Source of the DNA: Candidatus Geothermarchaeota archaeon
Lineage (GTDB): Archaea > Thermoproteota > Nitrososphaeria > Geothermarchaeales > JDFR-13
DNA length: 64,000 nucleotides
Assembly: GCA_015523545.1 (NCBI GenBank)
Contig: WAKB01000001.1
Coordinates: 1 to 64,000, forward strand
Direction of reading: 5' to 3'
Made by a program: the position numbers and the translations under genes
In this document: positions 6,553 to 38,246 of the stretch, one piece after another
How the letters are laid out: each line of letters begins with the position of its first letter
Numbering within the stretch: the first letter of the stretch is position 1
Notes under the pieces: model-generated
What the model was told of the DNA's origin: nothing
Database searches by the model: none
The model's input: the letters and a program-made list of their open reading frames with translations, nothing else

Positions 6553-6972
6553 CTAGATGTAGAGCCTCCTATAGCTGCGGAGAGCCTCGAATAGTGATAC
6601 CGTGGCTCCTACAAGTGATGCCATGAGGGATATGTACCAATAGGCCTGGCCAGGAGAGGGAAATAAGAGGCTGTAGATCAGGATCACAAGGAAGAATACG
6701 GATAGGAAGAGTAGGCGTGGAACGATATACCTACCCATGAAGACGAAGTCCCGTAGATAGTCTATCTTCACATCCCTCTTAACATAGTAGTCCCCATACC
6801 TCTTATCAAGGAGACCCATGTGGACAAGCTTGTCGAGATGGTAATATGCGTGGCTAGGGCTCTTCATACCCATACCACGCATAACCTCACGGACACCGAC
6901 CTTCTCCTTACCAGTCCTTAGAATATAGAGGTAGACCCTCAGCGTAGTCCCCTGGAGATCCTCCATACCCAC
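6553..6972 (-). CDS. Membrane-anchored winged-helix regulator (N-terminal wHTH, two C-terminal TM helices; ArnR-like architecture)
   Basis: GVREVMRGMGMKSPSHAYYHLDKLVHMGLLDKRYGDYYV wHTH followed by two hydrophobic helices. Confidence 0.8.
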   Translation of the reverse strand: MGMEDLQGTTLRVYLYILRTGKEKVGVREVMRGMGMKSPSHAYYHLDKLVHMGLLDKRYGDYYVKRDVKIDYLRDFVFMGRYIVPRLLFLSVFFLVILIYSLLFPSPGQAYWYISLMASLVGATVSLFEALRSYRRLYI

Positions 6973-23088: not shown

Positions 23089-24855
23089 CTATCTCGAGTG
23101 TAGAGGTATGGGCGGCTTCCTAGCGAGGTAGATCGCCAGGCATACCAGGAATACGGCTACGCTTACCAGTATCGTGGCTGCACCTGCATTCACGTTGGAG
23201 TAGTAGCTCAGGTAGTACCCAACGATACCGCTGAAGACACCTATAGAGACGCTTATACCGATATACTGCCTAGGCCTCCTACTAACCAGGTACGCAGCGG
23301 ATGGAGGGACTATGAGGGCGGCAATAGCGGGTATAGCGCCTATCGACATGAAGGCAGATACCGTGGATATGGCTAGGAGTAGGAGTAGGGCATAGTGTAT
23401 AAGGCCTATCCTCACACCCATCGAGATTGCGGAGACGGGGTCAATAGCGTATAACAGGAGATGCCTGTGGAAGAGGAGGAGTAGAACCCCTATACCCAGG
23501 GCTGATAATACTGCCCTAGTCATCATCTCACTGGAGACAGCCGTTACATCGGCGAAGAGCACATCTTCAAGGGATATGTTGACACCCCCCATTGTAGAGA
23601 TTATAAGCGTGGCAATAGCAAGCATGGAGGTGAAGGATATAGCTATTATCACGTCAGCCCTTAGAGTGGTCACCCTCTCCAGCGTACCCACCGTAAACGC
23701 TATGAATAGCCCTATCAATAAGGCTCCAAGGTAGAAGTCCATCGCCAGGAGATAAGCCATAAGAAGGCCGACTATAGCCCCATGCCCAAGAGCATCGCTG
23801 AATATCGACCAGCCCCTAAGTACGGCATATGCACCCACAGCCGACGTCATAGCCATGAGTACGACGAGAGTTAGGAACCCCCTCTTCAGGAAGTCATAGG
23901 CGAGGGGTTTTAGGAGGGGGTTATCTATACTCGCTACTTCTATAGCCACCTCTCCAGCCCCCTCTAGGAGGGCCTCCCTAATCACCTCGGTGTTCCACCT
24001 AATCATCTCGACATAGCTGTAGACACCGTAATCCGGGGCTAGACTCTCAAGGACGACGAAGCCATATGTCTCCAGACCGGCCTCCTCCGCTAGTGTCTCA
24101 ACAACCTCCCTAAGGGTAGTGCCCATCTCCTCATACTCGATGATTATTACTACCTCACCACTCAGAACCACATCCTCGAACTGCTCCACAACCCAGGCAG
24201 TGGCTGGCTCATATACACCAGCCGCCCCAGTTATATAACCAGCAACCTCTAATCCATACCTCTCCGCATAATACATCAAACCGTTCCTAACCGTGAATAT
24301 TGACCTAGTGGGCAGCCCGGGGTGGGAGAGCATGTCTAGAACCCATGCGTCAAGACTCTCCAGCTCATCGAGATACCTATCCGCATTCTCCATGTAGACC
24401 TCTTCATACTGTGGAGCCAAGTCGGAGAAGAGGCTGGCCAGCTCCTCCACCAGCCTCATGGTGAGGCTTACATCGTGCCAGAAATATGGGTTTTCATAGA
24501 CCCTAGGCTCATACCTAACCACGAGGTCAAGGATGCTCAACACCCCCTCCCCATCCCTAAGTCCAGCGACGTTACTAGCTATGGCCAGCTCGGAGCCATA
24601 CCCTACATATAGGAATAGATCCGCTAGGTAGGCCTTCTCGGAGTCGGAGGGGGTGAACTCATAGGTTGAGGCGTGCCTCCCGGGACGTAGGAGGCTCTCG
24701 GCATAGCCATACTCACCCAGTATGTTCCCAGCAATGTCCGAGATGAAGGGGTAGGTCGTCACTACATATAGTCCCTCAGGCCTAGTCTGGACAGGATCGC
24801 CCACGGCTAGGAGGGCTATGAATACCGCCATGGAAACATATACCCATGTCCTCAT
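23089..24855 (-). CDS. Zn/Mn-type ABC transporter, fused substrate-binding protein (ZnuA-like) and permease (ZnuB-like)
   Basis: N-half YVVTTYPFISDIAGNI...GRHASTYEFTPSDSEKAYLADLFLYVGYGSE; C-half RGWSIFSDALGHGAIVGLLMAYLL...SIGAIPAIAALIVPPSAAYLVSR; one continuous frame. Confidence 0.88.
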   Translation of the reverse strand: MRTWVYVSMAVFIALLAVGDPVQTRPEGLYVVTTYPFISDIAGNILGEYGYAESLLRPGRHASTYEFTPSDSEKAYLADLFLYVGYGSELAIASNVAGLRDGEGVLSILDLVVRYEPRVYENPYFWHDVSLTMRLVEELASLFSDLAPQYEEVYMENADRYLDELESLDAWVLDMLSHPGLPTRSIFTVRNGLMYYAERYGLEVAGYITGAAGVYEPATAWVVEQFEDVVLSGEVVIIIEYEEMGTTLREVVETLAEEAGLETYGFVVLESLAPDYGVYSYVEMIRWNTEVIREALLEGAGEVAIEVASIDNPLLKPLAYDFLKRGFLTLVVLMAMTSAVGAYAVLRGWSIFSDALGHGAIVGLLMAYLLAMDFYLGALLIGLFIAFTVGTLERVTTLRADVIIAISFTSMLAIATLIISTMGGVNISLEDVLFADVTAVSSEMMTRAVLSALGIGVLLLLFHRHLLLYAIDPVSAISMGVRIGLIHYALLLLLAISTVSAFMSIGAIPAIAALIVPPSAAYLVSRRPRQYIGISVSIGVFSGIVGYYLSYYSNVNAGAATILVSVAVFLVCLAIYLARKPPIPLHSR

Positions 24856-24862
24856 GGAGCAC

Positions 24863-25585
24863 TCACCTATAGGCCTCCTCCAACACCTCCCTACGTAGAA
24901 CCTCGCCTGGAGGCCCGATCCTCACGATCCCATGCCTGAAGAGAATCACCCTATCGATCTCCTCCCCATCAGATATGTGATGCTCAGTAAGGATGACGAG
25001 CTTGCCACGCCCCTTCTCCTCCTCGAGAACCTTCATGATCCTCTCCTCGGAGGGGAAGTCGATGGACTCGAAGGGCTCGTCGAGGATATAGATTGTTGGG
25101 TCCTGGGCAAGTGCACGGGCTATCATGGCACGGGCCAGCTGCCCACCAGATACCTCCGAGAGCCTATAGTCACGCCTATCCCATAGGCCAACCCTCCTGA
25201 GAGCCTCCTCAACCATCCTATGATCCTCATCACTAGGCCTGGCTAGGAGGGGTAGCCTAGGATACCTACCCATCATGACGAAGTCGTAGAGGGTGATTGG
25301 TGCGTATATGTTCACCTCGTCGAGCTGGGGCACATAGCCTATCTCCCTCCTGACACCCGGATCCCTCACCGGGTCACGGCCAAGCACGGACACAATGCCC
25401 GATACGGGCTTGACAAGGCCGAGTATAGTCTTGACCAGAGTGGTCTTCCCACCCCCGTTGGGACCAGCTATCAAGACAATCTCGCCGGGATATAGCTCGA
25501 GGCTGAGGTTCCTAAACACGGGGCCGTTCCTATCACTATACTTCACAGTCACGTCTCTGAGAACTATGTATGGCTCCCGGGTCAT
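24863..25585 (-). CDS. Zn/Mn-type ABC transporter ATP-binding protein
   Basis: GPNGGGKTTLVKTILG, VSGGQLARAMIARAL, IYILDEPFESID. Confidence 0.93.
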   Translation of the reverse strand: MTREPYIVLRDVTVKYSDRNGPVFRNLSLELYPGEIVLIAGPNGGGKTTLVKTILGLVKPVSGIVSVLGRDPVRDPGVRREIGYVPQLDEVNIYAPITLYDFVMMGRYPRLPLLARPSDEDHRMVEEALRRVGLWDRRDYRLSEVSGGQLARAMIARALAQDPTIYILDEPFESIDFPSEERIMKVLEEEKGRGKLVILTEHHISDGEEIDRVILFRHGIVRIGPPGEVLRREVLEEAYR

Positions 25586-25647: not shown

Positions 25648-26079
25648 CTAATCCCTAGTTTCCATACACTTCTTGAGGAACATGTATAGCTTCTCAATCG
25701 TCTCGTCGGAGAGGAAGTGTTCAGCCAGCTCCGCCTCGATATTGGCACGCTCCTCATCAACCCCCAGAGCCAGGAATAGTTCTAGGAGCATACCATGCCT
25801 CCTCGATATCCTGCTAGCCAGCTCCTCACCCCTCCTCGTGAGCTTCGGATTCCTGTATCGCCTATACTCGACAAGGCCCTTCTCCTCCAGCCTCTTCAAC
25901 ATGTTGGTGACTGATGCCGGGGTGACCCCTAGTATCCTGGCTATATCGGTTGGCTGGGCATATCCATGGCTCTTCTCCAGCTCATAGATAACCTCTATAT
26001 AGTCCTCCTCAGCCATCGAGGCGAACCTCTTCTTCCTCCTATGAGCCTCCGCGAGGAGCTCCAGCCTATCCCTAGGCAA
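25648..26079 (-). CDS. DtxR/MntR family metal-dependent regulator
   Basis: EEDYIEVIYELEKSHGYAQPTDIARILGVTPASVTNMLKRLEEKGLVEY. Confidence 0.92.
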   Translation of the reverse strand: MPRDRLELLAEAHRRKKRFASMAEEDYIEVIYELEKSHGYAQPTDIARILGVTPASVTNMLKRLEEKGLVEYRRYRNPKLTRRGEELASRISRRHGMLLELFLALGVDEERANIEAELAEHFLSDETIEKLYMFLKKCMETRD

Positions 26080-29666: not shown

Positions 29667-31637
29667 CTAGTCCTCCCACTCGTTGTGGTCGTCATCATCC
29701 TCCCCATCATCCTCGCCGTGGTCATCCTCCATGTATCCGCCCCGTCCCCCGCCCATTCCATCGTCGCCAGATCCATCATCATCGCCATGCTGATCATCGT
29801 CCATCCCATCCCCAGCGTCTCCCATATCCTCATCTGACCACTCATCTTCTCCATCATCATGCTCCTCGTCGTGATCATCATCCATTCCACTGCCGAGAAT
29901 CATCTCTGCCTGCTCAATCATCTGCTCGGCCTCCATGTATAGTGCTCTTGCCTCCCCGATAAGCTGGAGTGCCTCTGTATAGTTACCTGTCCTAGCGGCT
30001 TCGGAGGCGTTCTCCAGTATTGACAGGGCCTGGCTAAGGATATCAGTAGCATTGGTCAGGAGTGCCGCAGCCTCAGAGTTGTTGCTCGAGACCGCTCTCT
30101 CCCACATCCTCTCGGCCTTATACCTCTTCTCCAGAATCTCCTCCCTAAGATCGGCGATCTCACTAAATACCTCGCCGGCCATGTCCTCATACATATCCTC
30201 CATCAAATCCTCAGCCATGTCTATCTGTTCCTCTGCATACTCGTAAAGTCTCTTAGCCTCTAGATATAAGTCGTAAGCCTCCACCAAGGAGCCGTTATCA
30301 AGGGCTGAGAAGGCCATGTCAAGCGTCATGGACGCATTCTCCAGTATCGATATGCTGGTGTTGAGTAGACCGATGAGGCTGTCGCCACCTGTCTCTCCAG
30401 CCCTTCCCATGAGATATTCAGCCCTTGTCATTGCCTCCGAGATCTCTAGTCGCAGCTCATTCATCTCCTCCACAAGCCAGTCTATGTTTACTGACTGGTT
30501 ATCACTGGGCTGTGTAGGCTCTTCAGGGGTGATGTCTAGAGCGTCGGCCACATCATCCAGAATATTCTCCGCATAGTCGATCTTCACCTTCGCACTCTCT
30601 AGATACATCATGGCCTCTGGGAGAGAGCCGTTAAGTGCGAGAACCTCAGCCATGTCTAGATCGCTAGAGGCATTAGCTAGATACCTCCTAGCCTCCTCTA
30701 TCAGTTGTAGCAGGTAGGTCTTGTTCTGAGCGTTAGCCTCCCCCTCCAACTGTAGGCTTATATTATTATATTTCTCAATCTCCATCCTCTCCTCACTGAT
30801 TTCTAGCAAGATCTTCTCAGCGAGAGTGTTGTTAACAGCATTCTCCACTACACCGGGGAGTGTCTGGTTACCTATCTCCTGAGCAACGTTCTCCAAGATG
30901 GTCAATGTCCCATTCAAAGTTGATATGGCTAAATCCACAGCTAGTATAGCCGCTGGATCCGCCCCCTCATCAGATAGGTAGTCCCTAATCTCACTCAACA
31001 GATCCATAGCTATGGAAATCCTCTCCATGCCCATCTCCAGCGTATCAACGCCGTCACCACTTGTTGATAACTCCCTAACAAGCTCTATAGCCGCCTCCAC
31101 TAGGTCACTGCTTATACCACTAACAGAGATCTCGTTTAAAGCCCTAGCCACGTCCTCAAGCTTCGCCAGCGCTGAGTCAAGGTTCCCAGCCTCTACATCG
31201 GATGCTATGGAGCTGTAGAGCTCCTCGATCGATGTATAGTTATACTTCTCAGCCACCACCTGTAGGACGCCCAGCACCTCCCTTACAATAGCCTCCTCTA
31301 CATCCCTCTGATCCAACACATCCTCTGGGAGAGTCTCCTTTAGATCCTCGAAGTAGCTTGCGAGAGTATCCCTGACACTCCTCAGCTCGTCTAGGCTTAG
31401 CATAGTTAGGTCCATAGCTGTGACGTTCTCTATGTATGCTAGTGCCTCCTGGGCGAGTGACTCGTCAGGAGTTATGTATGCCAGGCGCCTAACCATCTCG
31501 ATGTATACGTTTATCTCACCTATCACCACGCTCTTCTCGAGGCTGTCCTCCCGAGCCGCTGACGGAGCTGGGATCCCTGGTATGAGCCCGACAAGTATCA
31601 AGAGTAGTAGTCCGACCCCTATCAACACCCTATTCAT
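29667..31637 (-). CDS. Secreted repetitive helical/coiled-coil protein with Asp/Glu/His-rich C-terminal tail
   Basis: Signal peptide MNRVLIGVGLLLLILVGLIPG; internal helical repeats (SILENAS...ALDNGSLVEAYDLYLEAKRLYEYAEEQIDMAEDL); tail of about 73 aa with 38 D/E and 5 H. The ORF track extends to 31706. Confidence 0.8.
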   Translation of the reverse strand: MNRVLIGVGLLLLILVGLIPGIPAPSAAREDSLEKSVVIGEINVYIEMVRRLAYITPDESLAQEALAYIENVTAMDLTMLSLDELRSVRDTLASYFEDLKETLPEDVLDQRDVEEAIVREVLGVLQVVAEKYNYTSIEELYSSIASDVEAGNLDSALAKLEDVARALNEISVSGISSDLVEAAIELVRELSTSGDGVDTLEMGMERISIAMDLLSEIRDYLSDEGADPAAILAVDLAISTLNGTLTILENVAQEIGNQTLPGVVENAVNNTLAEKILLEISEERMEIEKYNNISLQLEGEANAQNKTYLLQLIEEARRYLANASSDLDMAEVLALNGSLPEAMMYLESAKVKIDYAENILDDVADALDITPEEPTQPSDNQSVNIDWLVEEMNELRLEISEAMTRAEYLMGRAGETGGDSLIGLLNTSISILENASMTLDMAFSALDNGSLVEAYDLYLEAKRLYEYAEEQIDMAEDLMEDMYEDMAGEVFSEIADLREEILEKRYKAERMWERAVSSNNSEAAALLTNATDILSQALSILENASEAARTGNYTEALQLIGEARALYMEAEQMIEQAEMILGSGMDDDHDEEHDDGEDEWSDEDMGDAGDGMDDDQHGDDDGSGDDGMGGGRGGYMEDDHGEDDGEDDDDHNEWED

Positions 31638-31687
31638 ACGGGTTTCACCGGGTAGGGAGAATACGTTCCAAAATATTGAGGACATAT

Positions 31688-31705
31688 GTGGAACACCGTG
31701 GAACA
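31688..31705 (-). promoter_or_regulatory. Direct repeat TGTTCCAC-GG-TGTTCCAC upstream of the secreted coiled-coil gene
   Basis: GTGGAACA at 31688-31695 and 31698-31705 (10-bp period), intergenic, upstream of the AT-rich element AAATATT (31671-31677). Confidence 0.45.
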
Positions 31706-31710
31706 TGGTT

Positions 31711-32577
31711 TCAAGGCTTCCTGAGTAGGCGGATTCTATTCCTCCTATACTCCTTGATCACCTCTACGTAGCCAAGCACCTCCAGCCTACGTATATGCCT
31801 CCATAGGGTCGTCTTCGGTATACCTAGCCTCCTCATCAACTCGCTCTGATACATCTCTCCACCCGCCTCCTCAAGAGCCTCCAGTATCAGGTGGTCGGTC
31901 TCGTCTAGGAAGCCGGCCTCCTCAAGATCTACCTCACCTGTTTTGGCTGATCTGTAGCGCCACGCCAGGAATCCAACAGCGACTATCGATGCCAGTACAG
32001 CAACCAGTACTAGGTTCCAAGGGAGTGGCTCACTAGCTGTTGGCGGTGGCTCTGGCGGAGTAGCCACCTCAGAGACTACGTATCTGATCTCGTATAGCCC
32101 CCTGAACTTCACAGTGAAGGTCCCGTCATCGTCGTAGAAGCTCTCTAGTATGGTCTCGGGGAGGCTTAGGAGGACTACTCTGCTGGAAACCCTTAGTATA
32201 GAGTCGTAGCCTGAGTAGTATCTGAATGCCACCCCCTCGCCCGAGGTGTCGACCTCGGGGATATACTCTATCGTGAAGCTCTGGCCAGGCTGGCCAGATA
32301 TAATCACACTATCGTTTATCACCACTGGAGTCCTAAGCTCCCCCTCCACATATACCACAACAGATGCGGGGGTGGGATCTGAGGGGAGCTGGATCTCCTC
32401 GATATCCCTCTCAAGAGTCCCGTTGAGGAATATCCTGGGAACCCCATCCTCAGTTATCACTATGGTGCCTGATATTGTGTATCCCCTTGTGGCCCCCATC
32501 ATAAGCGATATTATTGTCATAGCGATCAGGAGGCCCATAGCTATAGAGGCGATGCCGACCCTATTCATACCCACCAC
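31711..32577 (-). CDS. Transmembrane one-component regulator: ectodomain, TM, cytoplasmic winged helix
   Basis: N-terminal signal anchor, beta-rich ectodomain, TM LVLVAVLASIVAVGFLAWRY, wHTH DHLILEALEEAGGEMYQSELMRRLGIPKTTLWRHIRRLEVLGYVEV. Confidence 0.85.
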   Translation of the reverse strand: MVGMNRVGIASIAMGLLIAMTIISLMMGATRGYTISGTIVITEDGVPRIFLNGTLERDIEEIQLPSDPTPASVVVYVEGELRTPVVINDSVIISGQPGQSFTIEYIPEVDTSGEGVAFRYYSGYDSILRVSSRVVLLSLPETILESFYDDDGTFTVKFRGLYEIRYVVSEVATPPEPPPTASEPLPWNLVLVAVLASIVAVGFLAWRYRSAKTGEVDLEEAGFLDETDHLILEALEEAGGEMYQSELMRRLGIPKTTLWRHIRRLEVLGYVEVIKEYRRNRIRLLRKP

Positions 32578-32677
32578 TCATGGGCCATATCCCTATACTT
32601 AAATCCCGTCCCGATATAAAGTGGATGATTCCAACAGGTAGTGATTAAAATTATCGTTAAGCATATCATCTAATACT

Positions 32678-33121
32678 ATGACGGGGCCCAACACCCTCGA
32701 CAAGGTCGAGGTCGAGTTTAAAGGTGTGAAACATACCTATTCGAGCCAGGGCAGGCCCTACAAGTTAGCGGTAAGTGGATGCAGCGGAACATTCGTATCG
32801 GGCGTCGTACCCATATCTGATAAGGGCTTGGTCTCAAAAGATTTTAAGGAGCAGGTTAAGTTCGTCCTAAAAGTCATCACGGAGGTAGCCAAGGAGATTG
32901 GGAAGTCGTGTATAAAGAGTGATGATGAGGCTAAGAAGTCGATCCTGAAGCTGACGGTATTCGTCGTAGATCTCGATAATAATAAGTACCAGGATCTAAA
33001 CCAGGTCTTCAATGACTTCTTCGGGGGCCTAAACTATTTCCCTGCTAGGACGACGATCGGCGTGGCCTCAATCCCCATACCTGGTGCACTTGTTGAGATA
33101 GATGCCGTCCTTGACATCTGA
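32678..33121 (+). CDS. ridA: RidA (YjgF/YER057c/UK114) family protein
   Basis: VSGVVPISDKG, FPARTTIGVASIPIPGALVEIDAVLDI. Confidence 0.85.
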   Translation: MTGPNTLDKVEVEFKGVKHTYSSQGRPYKLAVSGCSGTFVSGVVPISDKGLVSKDFKEQVKFVLKVITEVAKEIGKSCIKSDDEAKKSILKLTVFVVDLDNNKYQDLNQVFNDFFGGLNYFPARTTIGVASIPIPGALVEIDAVLDI

Positions 33122-33169
33122 GGTAGGAGAGGTGTTACAGGCCTGGCGGGTAGGCTCGACTACCTCCTC

Positions 33170-34024
33170 TTGGCTGTAGCTGTAGTATCAGTATCCTTCG
33201 CGGCGATACTCTTCAGGCTATCGGGGGTAGCCGGATTCCCAGCAGCGGCCTGGAGGCTAGGCATAGGGAGCCTAGTCACACTGGTTATTCTCTTCCTCCT
33301 AGGTGGACCGGAGAGGGGGATACGGCCTAGGGACATGGGTCTAATGGTTCTGGGGGGCTTAGCACTGGCCCTCCACTTCGGCTTCTGGTTCATAAGCCTT
33401 GAGCATATAAGGGTGGGGCCCAGCACATTGATCGTCGATGCCTATCCAGCCGTACTGGCGATTATTGGACACATATTCTTTGGGGAGAGGTATGGATATA
33501 GGGATGTCGTCGGATCTCTACTCGCGATTATGGGTTTGGCTGGTATGGTAATCACGACCTATGGATACGAGCTGACGACACCTGGTGGAGACGTCGTGGT
33601 TGGCCTCGTAACAGTCCTCATATCCCTAGCCATGGTGACGACATACTTCATCATCGGGAAGTTTATGAGGCTTCGGATCGGGACCTGGACCTACACCTCA
33701 ATAGTCTACCCATCAGCATTCCTAGCCACCCTGGTAATTACACTGGGAACTGGGGAGTCACTGCTACCCCCGAGCCCCGAGTCCTACATCTACCTCATAC
33801 TCCTAGGCATCGTCCCGATGATAGGTGGGCACACAGTGATCAACTACCTACTCCCGAGGCTTAGGAGCTTGACCGTTACCATACCCGTGATAACAGAGCC
33901 TATAGGGGCTAGCCTACTAGCATATATAGTTCTTGGCGAGACACTCCCCCTCGAGGCCTCTATATGGATAGGGATCACGGTGCTGGGCGTAGGTCTCGTG
34001 ATATCATCTGAGGAGGCCGGTTAG
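33170..34024 (+). CDS. EamA/DMT superfamily transporter (start uncertain)
   Basis: About ten TM, FFGERYGYRDVVGSLLAIMGLAGM and LGETLPLEASIWIGITVLGVGLVI. The ORF-track TTG start may not be the true start. Confidence 0.85.
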   Translation: MAVAVVSVSFAAILFRLSGVAGFPAAAWRLGIGSLVTLVILFLLGGPERGIRPRDMGLMVLGGLALALHFGFWFISLEHIRVGPSTLIVDAYPAVLAIIGHIFFGERYGYRDVVGSLLAIMGLAGMVITTYGYELTTPGGDVVVGLVTVLISLAMVTTYFIIGKFMRLRIGTWTYTSIVYPSAFLATLVITLGTGESLLPPSPESYIYLILLGIVPMIGGHTVINYLLPRLRSLTVTIPVITEPIGASLLAYIVLGETLPLEASIWIGITVLGVGLVISSEEAG

Positions 34025-34073
34025 CGGCTTAGGGGTCTTCTTTAAAGCAGTTACTAGGTGATAATATAATTAG

Positions 34074-35306
34074 GTGCTGATGATGGAGCTGAGCCACGTA
34101 CTACCAGAGGTGGATAGATACTTTGAGTATGCTCTCGACACCGTCTATAAATATATTCATAAGACCCCTATGGACTATAGCGCGACTCTCTCCAAGATGG
34201 TTGGCGGGGAGGTATACCTGAAGTGTGAGAATCTACAGAAGACTGGTAGCTTCAAGGTTAGGGGTGCGATAACAAAGATCTCTAGGCTCAGGGGTAAGAC
34301 AGAAGGTGTAGTTGCAGTTAGTGCGGGTAACCATGCACAGGGAGTGGCATATGCAGCCTCCATATACGGCTTGAAATCCATAATCGTCATGCCGAGAGAT
34401 GCTTCTATATCAAAGGTGGAGGCCACGAAGAACTATGGCGGGGATGTCGTCCTGGCCGAGGGGGGATTCGGACACCTATTCCAGCTCGGCTACGAGATAT
34501 CGAGGAGTAGGGGCTATGAATTCGTCCATCCCTACGACGACCCCGAGATAATCGCTGGTCAGGGCACCCTTGGATGGGAGATCCTACAGCAGGTTAGCGA
34601 CGCAGACACGATAGTAGTGCCCATCGGGGGCGGGGGCCTGATATCCGGAATCTCCTACATAGCGAAGAAGCTGAGGCCAAGCATAAGGATCATAGGGGTC
34701 GAGTCAGAGGCCGTACCAAAGGCCAGCGAGGCTAGGAAGGCGGGGAGGATAGTCGATGTGGAGGTCAGGCCGACACTGGCCGATGGGCTCTCAGCTAAGA
34801 GGCTGGGTGAGCTCACCTTCCAGTTCATAGAGAAGTATGTAGATGAGATCTACACCGTCTCTGAGGAGGCTATTGCACAGGCAATCTACTTCATCCTAGA
34901 GAGGAGTAAGATGCTTGTGGAGGGTGCAGGTGCCACCACCGTGGCAATGATCTTCGACGGGCATGGAGACCTATTCAGAAATGGGAAGACGGTCTTCCTA
35001 CTATCCGGTGGGAATATAGACCTTACATCGATCTACAGAATCCTACTTAGAGGCCTGAGCGAGGCTAAGAAGATCGTCAGTCTCGAGGGATATGCCCTGG
35101 ACGTGCCCGGGACACTAGCCAGGATAGCCGGGATAATAGCTGAGAAGGGCGGTAACATAGTAGATGTTTTCCACGACAGGATGGATATCTATACACCCCC
35201 TGGATACACCAACCTGAAGATCATTGTAGAGGTGCCCAACCCAGAGACTATTGAGGAGATAAAGGAGATGCTGCGCCACTCAGGGATATGGATAAGCAAA
35301 GGATGA
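34074..35306 (+). CDS. ilvA: Threonine ammonia-lyase with C-terminal ACT-like domain
   Basis: KCENLQKTGSFKVRGA (PLP Lys), SAGNHAQGVAYAA, GGGGLISGI, C-terminal ACT-like YALDVPGTLARIAGIIAEKGGNIV. Confidence 0.93.
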   Translation: MLMMELSHVLPEVDRYFEYALDTVYKYIHKTPMDYSATLSKMVGGEVYLKCENLQKTGSFKVRGAITKISRLRGKTEGVVAVSAGNHAQGVAYAASIYGLKSIIVMPRDASISKVEATKNYGGDVVLAEGGFGHLFQLGYEISRSRGYEFVHPYDDPEIIAGQGTLGWEILQQVSDADTIVVPIGGGGLISGISYIAKKLRPSIRIIGVESEAVPKASEARKAGRIVDVEVRPTLADGLSAKRLGELTFQFIEKYVDEIYTVSEEAIAQAIYFILERSKMLVEGAGATTVAMIFDGHGDLFRNGKTVFLLSGGNIDLTSIYRILLRGLSEAKKIVSLEGYALDVPGTLARIAGIIAEKGGNIVDVFHDRMDIYTPPGYTNLKIIVEVPNPETIEEIKEMLRHSGIWISKG

Positions 35307-35309
35307 CCA

Positions 35310-36140
35310 CTACTCCCTAAGCCTATAGACCCGTCTCTGACCCTCCCTCACCACCTCTACCACTCCACTCTCAACAAGTTTTGAGAGCCGTCTATATAGT
35401 GGGGACTTTGGGATACCCGTCTCCTCCATAAGCTCCGAGGCAGTCATAGGCCTCCTCCTCAACGCCTCTATTATCAGCCTATCCCTCTCATCCTCAACGG
35501 CCTCCACGAATCTCTTCCTCCCCCTATGGAGTATTATGAGTGTGGCTCCCGCTGCAATGGCTACGATGAGTATGATTGGTAGCGGGTCTATACCTCCTGT
35601 ATCAGCCCCATCACCCCCGCCGCCATCCACGCCGTCACCACCATCTATGGGTGGTGGGCTCGTCACATACTCGATCGTTACGTTGCCGGGTCCGAAGTCT
35701 AGGGCGGGTGAGCCGTTCACAAAGGATATGCCATAGTTCTCCCTCGAGACTGATAGGATTATTGTGCCCTCTGGGAGGAGTATCCTATAGGGTGTATCGA
35801 AGCCTATCTCCAGCCTCCATATCTCGGCCTCCTTGGAGGTGAGGCCGTAGAAATAGGCCTCTACCGAGGCCCTTTCAGAGGTGGATATGAATATCAGCTC
35901 ATCACCCTCCAGCAGGTATGGGAGGTCACCCCCCTCAGTATATACCCTGACGTGGAACGGCTCCGAGGGTAGTCTGAGCGATATGTTCTCGGGAGGTATG
36001 GTAACCAGGTCATAGAGAACCATGACGGAGCCGTCCCTATAGACCTCTACCAGTATATTCCTAACCTGGTATGGATACGCCCCCACATACGTGGCGGCTA
36101 TGAGGATGAGAAGGAGGTATATGGTGGGGGCTAGCCTCAT
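35310..36140 (-). CDS. Transmembrane one-component regulator: ectodomain, TM, cytoplasmic winged helix
   Basis: Signal peptide, beta-rich ectodomain, Gly/Asp linker, TM PLPIILIVAIAAGATLIIL, wHTH LIIEALRRRPMTASELMEETGIPKSPLYRRLSKLVESGVVEVV. Confidence 0.85.
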   Translation of the reverse strand: MRLAPTIYLLLILIAATYVGAYPYQVRNILVEVYRDGSVMVLYDLVTIPPENISLRLPSEPFHVRVYTEGGDLPYLLEGDELIFISTSERASVEAYFYGLTSKEAEIWRLEIGFDTPYRILLPEGTIILSVSRENYGISFVNGSPALDFGPGNVTIEYVTSPPPIDGGDGVDGGGGDGADTGGIDPLPIILIVAIAAGATLIILHRGRKRFVEAVEDERDRLIIEALRRRPMTASELMEETGIPKSPLYRRLSKLVESGVVEVVREGQRRVYRLRE

Positions 36141-36160
36141 GTAAAAAGGGATTGGGAGGG

Positions 36161-37528
36161 TCAGCTATATTTCGCTAGGAGCTCGTCAACCCTCTGTATA
36201 AGGCTGTCGAGATACTTGAAGACGAAGTCGGGTATATTTGGGTAGCGTGAAAGCCTATCCCTTAGCTCGGTGAGCCCCTCCCTAATCATGCTCAGCTGGA
36301 AGACTAGGTACTCCCTGGTTATCTCGCCAGCCTCATACTTCTTTACCAGCTCATCGATCCTCTCCTCGAACTCTCTAAGCATCGAGAGGAACTGGCTGGC
36401 CAGCCTATCCATACCACCCCTGATCCTCCTAATCTCCTCCCTAATAGACTCCCTAATCTCATCCAGCCTCTCCAGCACCGGCATAGGCACCGGTATTCCT
36501 AGGCCTGGCAGCTCCTCCATAAGGCCCTCGAGCCTGTTCAACGCCTGCTCAAGACTCGTTAGCGCAGCCTCCACATCACCGTTGTCGAGGCTCTCAATAG
36601 CGCTGTCGACGAGGCTCTTAACCTCCCTCATAACCTCCACCACGTCTCCAGCCTTCCTCCTAACCTTCTCGTCGACACCTATCTCTACACCCTTCTCCGC
36701 TATCCGCTCAGCCCTCTCGATGAACTCTCCTATTAGGCTTGATAGTAGGGCTAGGCGTGCCCTGGCCTCACTCATCTGGCCGTTATTGATCAGGTTTATC
36801 GAGCTGTTTATTTCAGCTATGACCTTCATAACGAAGGCCATGGTTATGGTGCCTGCCACCATCTGTAGACTTATCGATGCCCAGTCCCTCCTGAGGCTCT
36901 GCCTAATACTCATTATCAGCTCCTCAAGCCTCTGATCAATCTCCCGTAGCCTCTCTATAGCTACCTCTGGCCCTATCACGTCGACCTCATCCATGAGCTG
37001 GAGCAGCTCGTCCCTAGCCTCCCTAAGATCGGCTATTATCTCATCAATATTGATGTCGATACAGTATCCTGTGGAGGCGGCTCCACATACAACTCCAGAC
37101 TCCTCCATCCTCTCAGCGGCATCTATCGCAGACTCCACTATCTTTAGCCTGACCCTTATAGCCGCCATGACCGCCTCTACATCTAGGGTCTCCTCGGGGG
37201 GTGCGACTGTGTAGACATACTTGATTACTGGGGCTAGGAGGGTGCCCGCCTTTATGAGCATGTCGACTGCCTCCTCCTCATCAGCCTCTCTAGCCTGGCT
37301 CACAAGGTTCTTGGCCTCCTCCAGATTGGCCTGTAGATCTTCTGGGAGGGTTATGTTGTGTGCCTCTATGTATTGCTCGAGCCGCTCAATAAGCCTCTCC
37401 ATATGTTCGATATACTTGTCTATAGGCCTCTCAGCCCCAATCACGGACGTGTCTACCAGAACCCCGCTGAGCACGAGCGCCATCAGTGTGACAGCTGAGA
37501 GTAGTCTATACATCATTGTACTACTCAC
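36161..37528 (-). CDS. Secreted repetitive coiled-coil protein
   Basis: Signal peptide; long helical repeats (SLVDSAIESLDNGDVEAALTSLEQALNRLEGLMEEL). GTG start at 37526-37528 with TATA-like TATTTTAG (plus strand) at 37553-37560. Confidence 0.8.
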   Translation of the reverse strand: MSSTMMYRLLSAVTLMALVLSGVLVDTSVIGAERPIDKYIEHMERLIERLEQYIEAHNITLPEDLQANLEEAKNLVSQAREADEEEAVDMLIKAGTLLAPVIKYVYTVAPPEETLDVEAVMAAIRVRLKIVESAIDAAERMEESGVVCGAASTGYCIDINIDEIIADLREARDELLQLMDEVDVIGPEVAIERLREIDQRLEELIMSIRQSLRRDWASISLQMVAGTITMAFVMKVIAEINSSINLINNGQMSEARARLALLSSLIGEFIERAERIAEKGVEIGVDEKVRRKAGDVVEVMREVKSLVDSAIESLDNGDVEAALTSLEQALNRLEGLMEELPGLGIPVPMPVLERLDEIRESIREEIRRIRGGMDRLASQFLSMLREFEERIDELVKKYEAGEITREYLVFQLSMIREGLTELRDRLSRYPNIPDFVFKYLDSLIQRVDELLAKYS

Positions 37529-37556: not shown

Positions 37557-38246
37557 TTAGGGAGCCAGTGGGAATATGATGGGAAGATAGTGGGAAATCC
37601 TCTCCAGACCCTTTCCAGCTGATTCCTCCCTAGCTGAGAGCCTTCTACCGAGGATAGCGAATATATTGGCTAGTAGTGTCAGGCTCAACGTGGGGGACAC
37701 GACAGGCCGGAGAGTGGTGCTGAGAGTCTCCGGGCTTCCCAAGACACTTATAGAGACAGCCACCCCTACCGAGAGACCCGGCCCTATCGAGCCGCCCAGC
37801 CCTATGAGTAGGAGGGAGTAGACGATTGTCAGGACCATCCCGGTCAGGGATGGGAGTTTGAACCCTATCAACTCCCTGGACAGCCTCCTATCCCTGACTA
37901 GTGAACCAGCCACCAGTGATAGCCCGGCCACTGCATAGGAGAGCTTTGAGGAGAGGTATAGATAGTTGAGTATTGGCATATCTCCACTCGTGCCGAAGAG
38001 TAGTATTGAGACCTTGTCGAAGCCGAAGGACACCTCACCAGCCTCAGAGGCCAGCCTCACCAGTGGTCCCCCGAATAGTACTAGGTAAAGGGTTATCAGG
38101 CCTGAGAGGAGGGCAGGGACATTTACATGCCCCAGGTAGAAGACCTTCTCAAGCAGCGTCCTATCACGAGACGGATATGTATCCGGTGAACTCGACCCTC
38201 CTGACGAATACCTCACCCTGATACTCCACCTCCATGTACAGTACAA
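37557..38246 (-). CDS. Hypothetical polytopic membrane protein (start uncertain)
   Basis: Multiple hydrophobic helices; N-terminal part overlaps the next CDS, so the true start may be near 38216 or further downstream. Confidence 0.55.
   Translation of the reverse strand: MYCTWRWSIRVRYSSGGSSSPDTYPSRDRTLLEKVFYLGHVNVPALLSGLITLYLVLFGGPLVRLASEAGEVSFGFDKVSILLFGTSGDMPILNYLYLSSKLSYAVAGLSLVAGSLVRDRRLSRELIGFKLPSLTGMVLTIVYSLLLIGLGGSIGPGLSVGVAVSISVLGSPETLSTTLRPVVSPTLSLTLLANIFAILGRRLSAREESAGKGLERISHYLPIIFPLAP
37569..37596 (-). promoter_or_regulatory. Three TTCCCA repeats at 11-bp spacing upstream of the coiled-coil gene
   Basis: TGGGAA (plus strand) at 37569, 37580 and 37591, directly upstream of the TATA-like element at 37553-37560. 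Confidence 0.45.

Follow-up and report, generated by a model that had tools for sequence, protein, structure and literature searches.

One-component regulators anchored in the membrane are found widely and occur in Thermoproteota too (PMC10269533), and several of those studied in bacteria have a partner that is encoded adjacently (PMC10269533, PMC13042144). These co-component transmembrane transcription regulators (TTRs) include ToxR/ToxS, VtrA/VtrC, TcpP/TcpH and PsaE/PsaF (PMC13042144, PMC9214523, PMC10269533), in which an N-terminal winged helix-turn-helix (wHTH) domain is followed by a transmembrane (TM) segment and a C-terminal periplasmic domain (PMC13042144). How surface conditions are communicated to the genes in Thermoproteota is poorly understood; ArnR and similar membrane-bound regulators belong to the small number of studied cases. 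Here, we describe two gene pairs, RegA-CCA and RegB-CCB, each consisting of a predicted membrane-anchored wHTH regulator and a secreted helical partner, in a 64,000-nucleotide stretch of DNA from Candidatus Geothermarchaeota archaeon (GCA_015523545.1, WAKB01000001.1, positions 1-64,000, forward strand; hereafter, the window). What is new here is a conserved operator at the promoters of the partner genes. We estimate at roughly 0.5 the probability that each module is a dedicated regulator-target pair acting across the archaeal membrane, with extracellular feedback by the partner.

In outline, the modules resemble ToxRS and VtrAC, since a wHTH regulator that spans the membrane once and has an extracytoplasmic domain is encoded next to a partner (for 62 of the 98 regulators surveyed here). 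However, the topology is reversed (signal, ectodomain, TM segment and then a C-terminal wHTH domain), and the partner is soluble and all-alpha, CCB having an N-terminal signal and no lipocalin-type match, whereas the ToxRS/VtrAC partners consist of a TM helix and a lipocalin-like beta domain. A further hallmark of ToxRS and VtrAC is that the extracytoplasmic domains form an obligate heterodimer. The system described here is, in addition, archaeal, phylum-wide and equipped with a dedicated operator at the partner promoter. Because the topology and the partner fold are not those of co-component TTRs, we do not file the modules with that group, despite the similar outline. With ArnR/ArnR1 of Sulfolobus, which control surface structures (PMC6396743), they share the status of an archaeal membrane-bound one-component HTH regulator; ArnR, however, has an N-terminal HTH, HAMP-like and sensor domains and two C-terminal TM segments, and no secreted helical partner has been described for it (PMC6396743). 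No description of the regulator-partner pairing in archaea was found in the open-access literature.

Module A comprises RegA (31711-32577, 288 amino acids (aa)) and CCA (29667-31637, 656 aa), and module B comprises RegB (35310-36140, 276 aa) and CCB (36161-37528, 455 aa), all on the minus strand. These four open reading frames (ORFs) had been proposed in a preliminary description of the same DNA and all of them were found, as were the swapped gene order of the modules (RegA then CCA; CCB then RegB) and both recurring helical motifs that it had quoted from CCA and CCB. For CCA, the ATG at 31637 is the best start codon, and the resulting 73-bp gap between RegA and CCA contains the CCA operator. 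A recent tandem duplication as the origin of the modules was rejected, since about one residue in four is shared by RegA and RegB, and two genera retain both pairs.

Hydropathy profiles of RegA and RegB contain two hydrophobic stretches, corresponding to an N-terminal signal and a TM segment preceding the wHTH domain (signal peptides and TM segments were assigned from hydropathy and AlphaFold2 alone). The AlphaFold2 model of RegA, built from a 50-sequence alignment with a mean predicted local distance difference test score (pLDDT) of 87.2, consists of a signal helix (residues 6-28), a beta ectodomain (36-168), a TM helix (187-212) and a wHTH domain (226-284); RegB can be aligned to RegA along its length and has a like architecture. 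The wHTH domain exceeds the Pfam cut-offs in both proteins (HTH_24, E 1.2e-10; HTH_20/HTH_5, E 8e-10/1.7e-9) and, in a Foldseek search with the RegA model, matched MarR-type regulators. The order of signal, beta ectodomain, TM segment and C-terminal wHTH domain given in the preliminary description is thus borne out by Pfam, hydropathy, the RegA model and the RegB alignment, and the DNA-binding fold of the C-terminal domain, on which its interpretation depended, is recovered by Pfam, the model and Foldseek alike. RegA and RegB also fit the definition of a TTR, i.e., a predicted DNA-binding domain together with at least one TM region (PMC10269533). The family DUF7343 (PF24034) matched the C-terminal wHTH of RegA with 27.6 bits, equal to the gathering cut-off, and that of RegB with 17.9 bits, below it; 14 of 27 regulator relatives were matched by this family at E 0.01. 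A recognition-helix motif PKTTxWR is present in RegA (PKTTLWR) and in most homologues, and the corresponding sequence of RegB is PKSPLYR.

Pfam gave no usable match for the ectodomain. The RegA model was matched by Foldseek to M1 aminopeptidases with a probability of 1.0 (best E 1.9e-5, identity mostly 8-18%), and, judging from this model, the N-terminal beta domain of these enzymes is the likely counterpart of the RegA ectodomain. Unlike M1 aminopeptidases, RegA has no catalytic domain, and the resemblance is one of fold only.

The partners had been described as secreted coiled coils. They are indeed predicted to be secreted and all-alpha, but the CCB model (13 helices beyond the signal helix, mean pLDDT 79.7) is an array of helical hairpins and not one long classical coiled coil. 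A Foldseek search with this model retrieved generic bundles only and nothing at E <0.001. Assignment of the partner to a known family was rejected, as Pfam, NCBIfam and PDB yielded only generic or sub-threshold helical matches, and the CpxP/Spy (LTXXQ) family was absent among the Pfam matches of CCA, CCB and the partners from Nitrosopumilaceae (our own reading of family f4; the window's family is termed here the Geothermarchaeum family). CCA contains 17 N-glycosylation sequons, against 3.3 in shuffled sequences, an excess that is expected for an extracellular protein; CCB showed no sequon excess over shuffles. The C-terminal 80 aa of CCA are rich in Asp and Glu (39 D+E) and include 5 His residues, and a similar acidic His-rich stretch is seen in the middle of the CCA orthologue from genus g4 (locus L066, 5433-6968, minus strand). 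Judging from their composition, it is possible that these stretches bind metal, and a ZnuA-type transporter and a DtxR-like regulator encoded a few kb from CCA may point in the same direction.

Linkage and homologue searches were restricted to Thermoproteota; several of the genomes surveyed are incomplete metagenome-assembled genomes (MAGs), and genes in the surveyed loci were called by our own simple gene predictor. Full-length profile matches to the regulator (E <1e-10) are present in 240 of 299 genomes, and in a scan of named genomes the closest relatives fall in Nitrososphaeria and Candidatus Geothermarchaeota MAGs. An early composition test (27 of 57 regulators versus 13 of 522 background genes) gave way to a hidden Markov model (HMM) of the partner, whose seed of 14 partner proteins contained no sequences from the window's family or Nitrosopumilaceae and which was used to search 1618 predicted genes from about 107 loci. 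Nearly all matches adjoin a regulator, and they include CCA (E 4.7e-5), CCB relatives (about 1e-22 for distant orthologues) and the Nitrosopumilaceae partners. After iteration, which was not limited to regulator neighbours and made CCA and CCB members of the profile themselves, 63 of 192 regulator-neighbour genes were matched versus 2 of 1253 others (Fisher P 4e-57). An adjacent partner was found for 62 of the 98 regulators, in all four orientations, and in 28 of 40 taxon groups; the latter is the safer figure, since linkage P values ignore phylogeny. When 25 whole genomes were searched, the partner profile found 0-2 genes in each, mostly beside a regulator. Chance adjacency was rejected on the basis of the composition test, the HMM neighbour counts and the whole-genome searches.

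In the window's family, all 12 regulators have an adjacent partner, and in the readable loci A pairs with A and B with B, with the gene orders of the window kept. In genome G006 (genus g4 of the same family), the genes intervening between the pairs differ, yet both pairs are retained. The co-conservation in related genomes that the preliminary description had required is thus observed in the family as well as across the phylum. Nitrosopumilaceae have a single regulator; the gene after it encodes a secreted helical protein, and in most cases the two reading frames share 4 bp. In nine regulators (six from Nitrosopumilaceae and those of loci L167, L174 and L183), the linker between the ectodomain and the TM segment contains a helical hairpin recognised by the partner HMM. 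Membrane-anchored ectodomain paralogues without a wHTH domain were seen beside two pairs (L107, 6795-7712, minus strand; L198, 9845-10747, plus strand). Together, the hairpin insertions and the wHTH-less ectodomain proteins suggest, at the level of sequence, that the two domains act together outside the cell.

The CCA operator (31680-31705, minus strand) consists of TGTTCCACGG-TGTTCCACATA-TGTCC direct repeats located immediately 5' of a TATA-like stretch and is kept in six loci. The CCB operator (37559-37596, minus strand) overlaps the 3' end of the preceding ORF (37557-38246) and consists of four TCCC repeats with an 11-bp period (TTCCCACTATC TTCCCATCATA TTCCCACTGGC TCCCT) followed by AAAATA; these repeats are kept in five loci, in one of which they are interrupted by Ns. 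In the window's family, both CCA (TGTTCC) and CCB (TTCCC) are preceded by direct repeats with a period of 10-11 bp, and a TATA-like stretch comes after the repeats in either case. The window's genome has a single copy of the A pattern (TGTTCC), located at the CCA promoter; across the family, this promoter accounts for seven of its eight matches. For the exact double repeat of B, CCB is the only site in the window's genome; with one mismatch allowed, the repeat was no commoner than the reversed control. The window's own promoters contain no inverted repeats of at least 5 bp per arm.

Across the phylum, partner promoters carry a TGAAACG-n-CGTTTCA-N5-TYCCTTA element just upstream of the TATA region. 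A position weight matrix (PWM) was trained on 14 partner promoters, with sites chosen and aligned by eye, and the reliable figures are those for held-out loci. There, scores of at least 20 were reached by 10 of 272 genes located within two genes of a regulator, by none of the 718 genes located farther away and by none of 3342 shuffled sequences. At a score of 10, the numbers were 18 of 272 versus 4 of 718 (P 1e-7), and three of the four far genes are a second secreted gene near the partner. The PWM also marked convergent secreted proteins of Nitrososphaerales (612-628 aa) and proteins of loci L070 and L107, most of which had been missed by the HMM and had previously been judged partner-like. 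In 58 genomes, GTTTCANNNNNTYCCTTA was matched at 52 sites, several times the number for the reversed control, and 19 of these sites lie no more than 2.5 kb from a regulator (P 1e-33 under uniform placement).

The promoters of regulator genes behaved differently, as none of the 84 held-out ones reached a PWM score of 20. In Nitrosopumilaceae, the regulator-partner operon has GTTCC/GTTTC half-sites in front of it, in an array that ends in TTCCTCATAA, so the regulator would also control itself there; outside this family, regulator promoters lack the operator, which suggests that the main output is the partner gene. A second secreted or membrane gene near the pair has the operator in its promoter in Nitrososphaerales (341-359 aa; L112, 4687-5712; L118, 6848-7897; L126, 8354-9433 (-)), and so does a second gene near the pair in family f11 (271-275 aa with a C-terminal TM segment; L161, 8306-9121; L197, 8193-9020 (+)).

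RegA, whose recognition helix is of the common type, goes with the common GTTCC half-site, and RegB, with PKSPLYR, goes with TTCCC at its partner. This parallel change of recognition helix and operator repeat within one genome is the best sequence argument for the wHTH domain binding these repeats, and we consider it probable that the wHTH domains of RegA and RegB bind the operators at the partner promoters. The 30-nt operator unit starts at about -51 to -67 relative to the start codon, which places the TYCCTTA element about 30 nt upstream of it. Short or absent leaders are common in archaea, and, with such leaders, the operator would lie directly upstream of the B recognition element (BRE)/TATA, where archaeal activators act. 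Activation of the partner gene is thus somewhat favoured over repression.

We propose that the regulator is anchored in the membrane, with the beta ectodomain outside and the wHTH domain inside. The latter, probably as a dimer or a higher assembly, would bind the GTTCC/GTTTC half-sites (TTCCC in the case of RegB) just upstream of the partner TATA region and set partner synthesis, most likely activating it via TBP/TFB recruitment. The exported partner would fold as a helical-hairpin array outside the membrane and most likely contact the regulator ectodomain, so that its supply at the surface would feed back on its expression, in a way similar to CpxP/ZraP reporting. In the bacterial two-component systems Cpx/CpxP and ZraSR/ZraP, a secreted helical protein is both a main target and a feedback partner of a membrane sensor. 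In this analogy, the target half is supported by the operator at the partner promoter and the feedback half is proposed; Pfam revealed no sequence relation to proteins of the CpxP/Spy type, and the modules, unlike these systems, are one-component and archaeal.

Possible sensing of, or gating by, the partner is suggested by the linkage, the 4-bp overlap in one family and the helical-hairpin insertions, and for a direct contact between partner and ectodomain we would give about even odds. The preliminary description had also arrived at such sensing or gating. Its basis, i.e., co-conservation and a wHTH fold, was confirmed, but its view of the partner as a sensor only was not, since the partner promoter carries a conserved operator, a point absent from that description; the partner is probably the regulator's main target, beyond any role as a sensor subunit. 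More tentatively, the modules may represent a phylum-wide surface-protein homeostat, in which the ectodomain of a membrane-anchored transcription factor binds the factor's own secreted target and tunes, via a dedicated operator, how strongly that target is transcribed; such a homeostat would be a one-component counterpart of the Cpx/CpxP loop. If this is true, the homeostat is possibly a main envelope-sensing system of Thermoproteota.

Several observations weigh against a dedicated pair with feedback. Convergent pairs have no common promoter, and helical hairpins of this kind may be common in archaea, in which case the argument from the fusions would be weaker. None of the nine regulators of family f7 has an adjacent partner, so a regulator can exist without one; the partner is located away from the regulator in genomes G195, G017, G028 and G123, and G005 has a partner homologue but no full-length regulator. 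In place of the partner, two Nitrosopumilaceae species have a 116-aa non-helical protein. These 116-aa proteins (L082, 10301-10651, plus strand; L100, 9387-9737, minus strand) are secreted and weakly immunoglobulin-like.

The f7 regulators would be accommodated if each module were a plain regulator-target pair, in which the operator controls the partner as an output only and the ectodomain senses a peptide, a metal or envelope damage without ever contacting the partner. Such a pair agrees with the presence of the operator not only at partner promoters but also at a second secreted gene nearby, in Nitrososphaerales and other families, and with the modelled resemblance of the ectodomain to the M1 aminopeptidase N-terminal domain, which could mean peptide binding. 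However, the translational overlap in Nitrosopumilaceae and the hairpin insertions of the regulators suggest more than a common promoter, and we regard the plain pair as possible but rather doubtful. A ToxRS-like receptor, as in the preliminary description, would have the partner as a standing sensor subunit that gates the regulator, with the true targets elsewhere. Adjacency and operon overlap are indeed as in bacterial co-component systems, and the partner is retained in 28 of 40 taxon groups; nevertheless, the conserved operator sits at the partner promoter and the exact patterns occur nowhere else in the window's genome, making such a receptor unlikely. That the operator is read by another regulator, such as the HTH_45 protein of Nitrosopumilaceae, and that the membrane wHTH has another role is very improbable, for although an HTH_45 gene precedes the regulator in that family and the binding of the operator by RegA/RegB is a prediction, no HTH_45 gene was seen beside the pair in the other families inspected (no systematic search was made), the operator and the membrane regulator travel together, and the operator type shifts with the recognition helix inside one genome. 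The HTH_45 protein in question has 95 aa and is encoded, apparently in the same operon as the regulator, in nearly all f4 genomes (L099, 8717-9004, plus strand).

A dedicated regulator-target pair with feedback by the partner points to an uncharacterised way for Thermoproteota cells to control their surface. It would constitute a concrete three-part unit (membrane regulator, operator and secreted target) in organisms ranging from probable ammonia oxidisers to hyperthermophiles, and its predicted half-sites can be tested directly in vitro. Two protein families without a Pfam domain, the ectodomain and the helical partner, thereby gain names and neighbours.

Elsewhere in the window, a 139-aa protein (6553-6972, minus strand) without a Pfam match appears, by eye, to have an N-terminal HTH followed by two TM segments, an ArnR-like order. 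A few kb from CCA, a 588-aa ORF (23089-24855, minus strand) encodes a fusion of a ZnuA-type binding protein with an ABC-3 permease and adjoins genes for an ATPase and a DtxR-type regulator (24863-25585 and 25648-26079).

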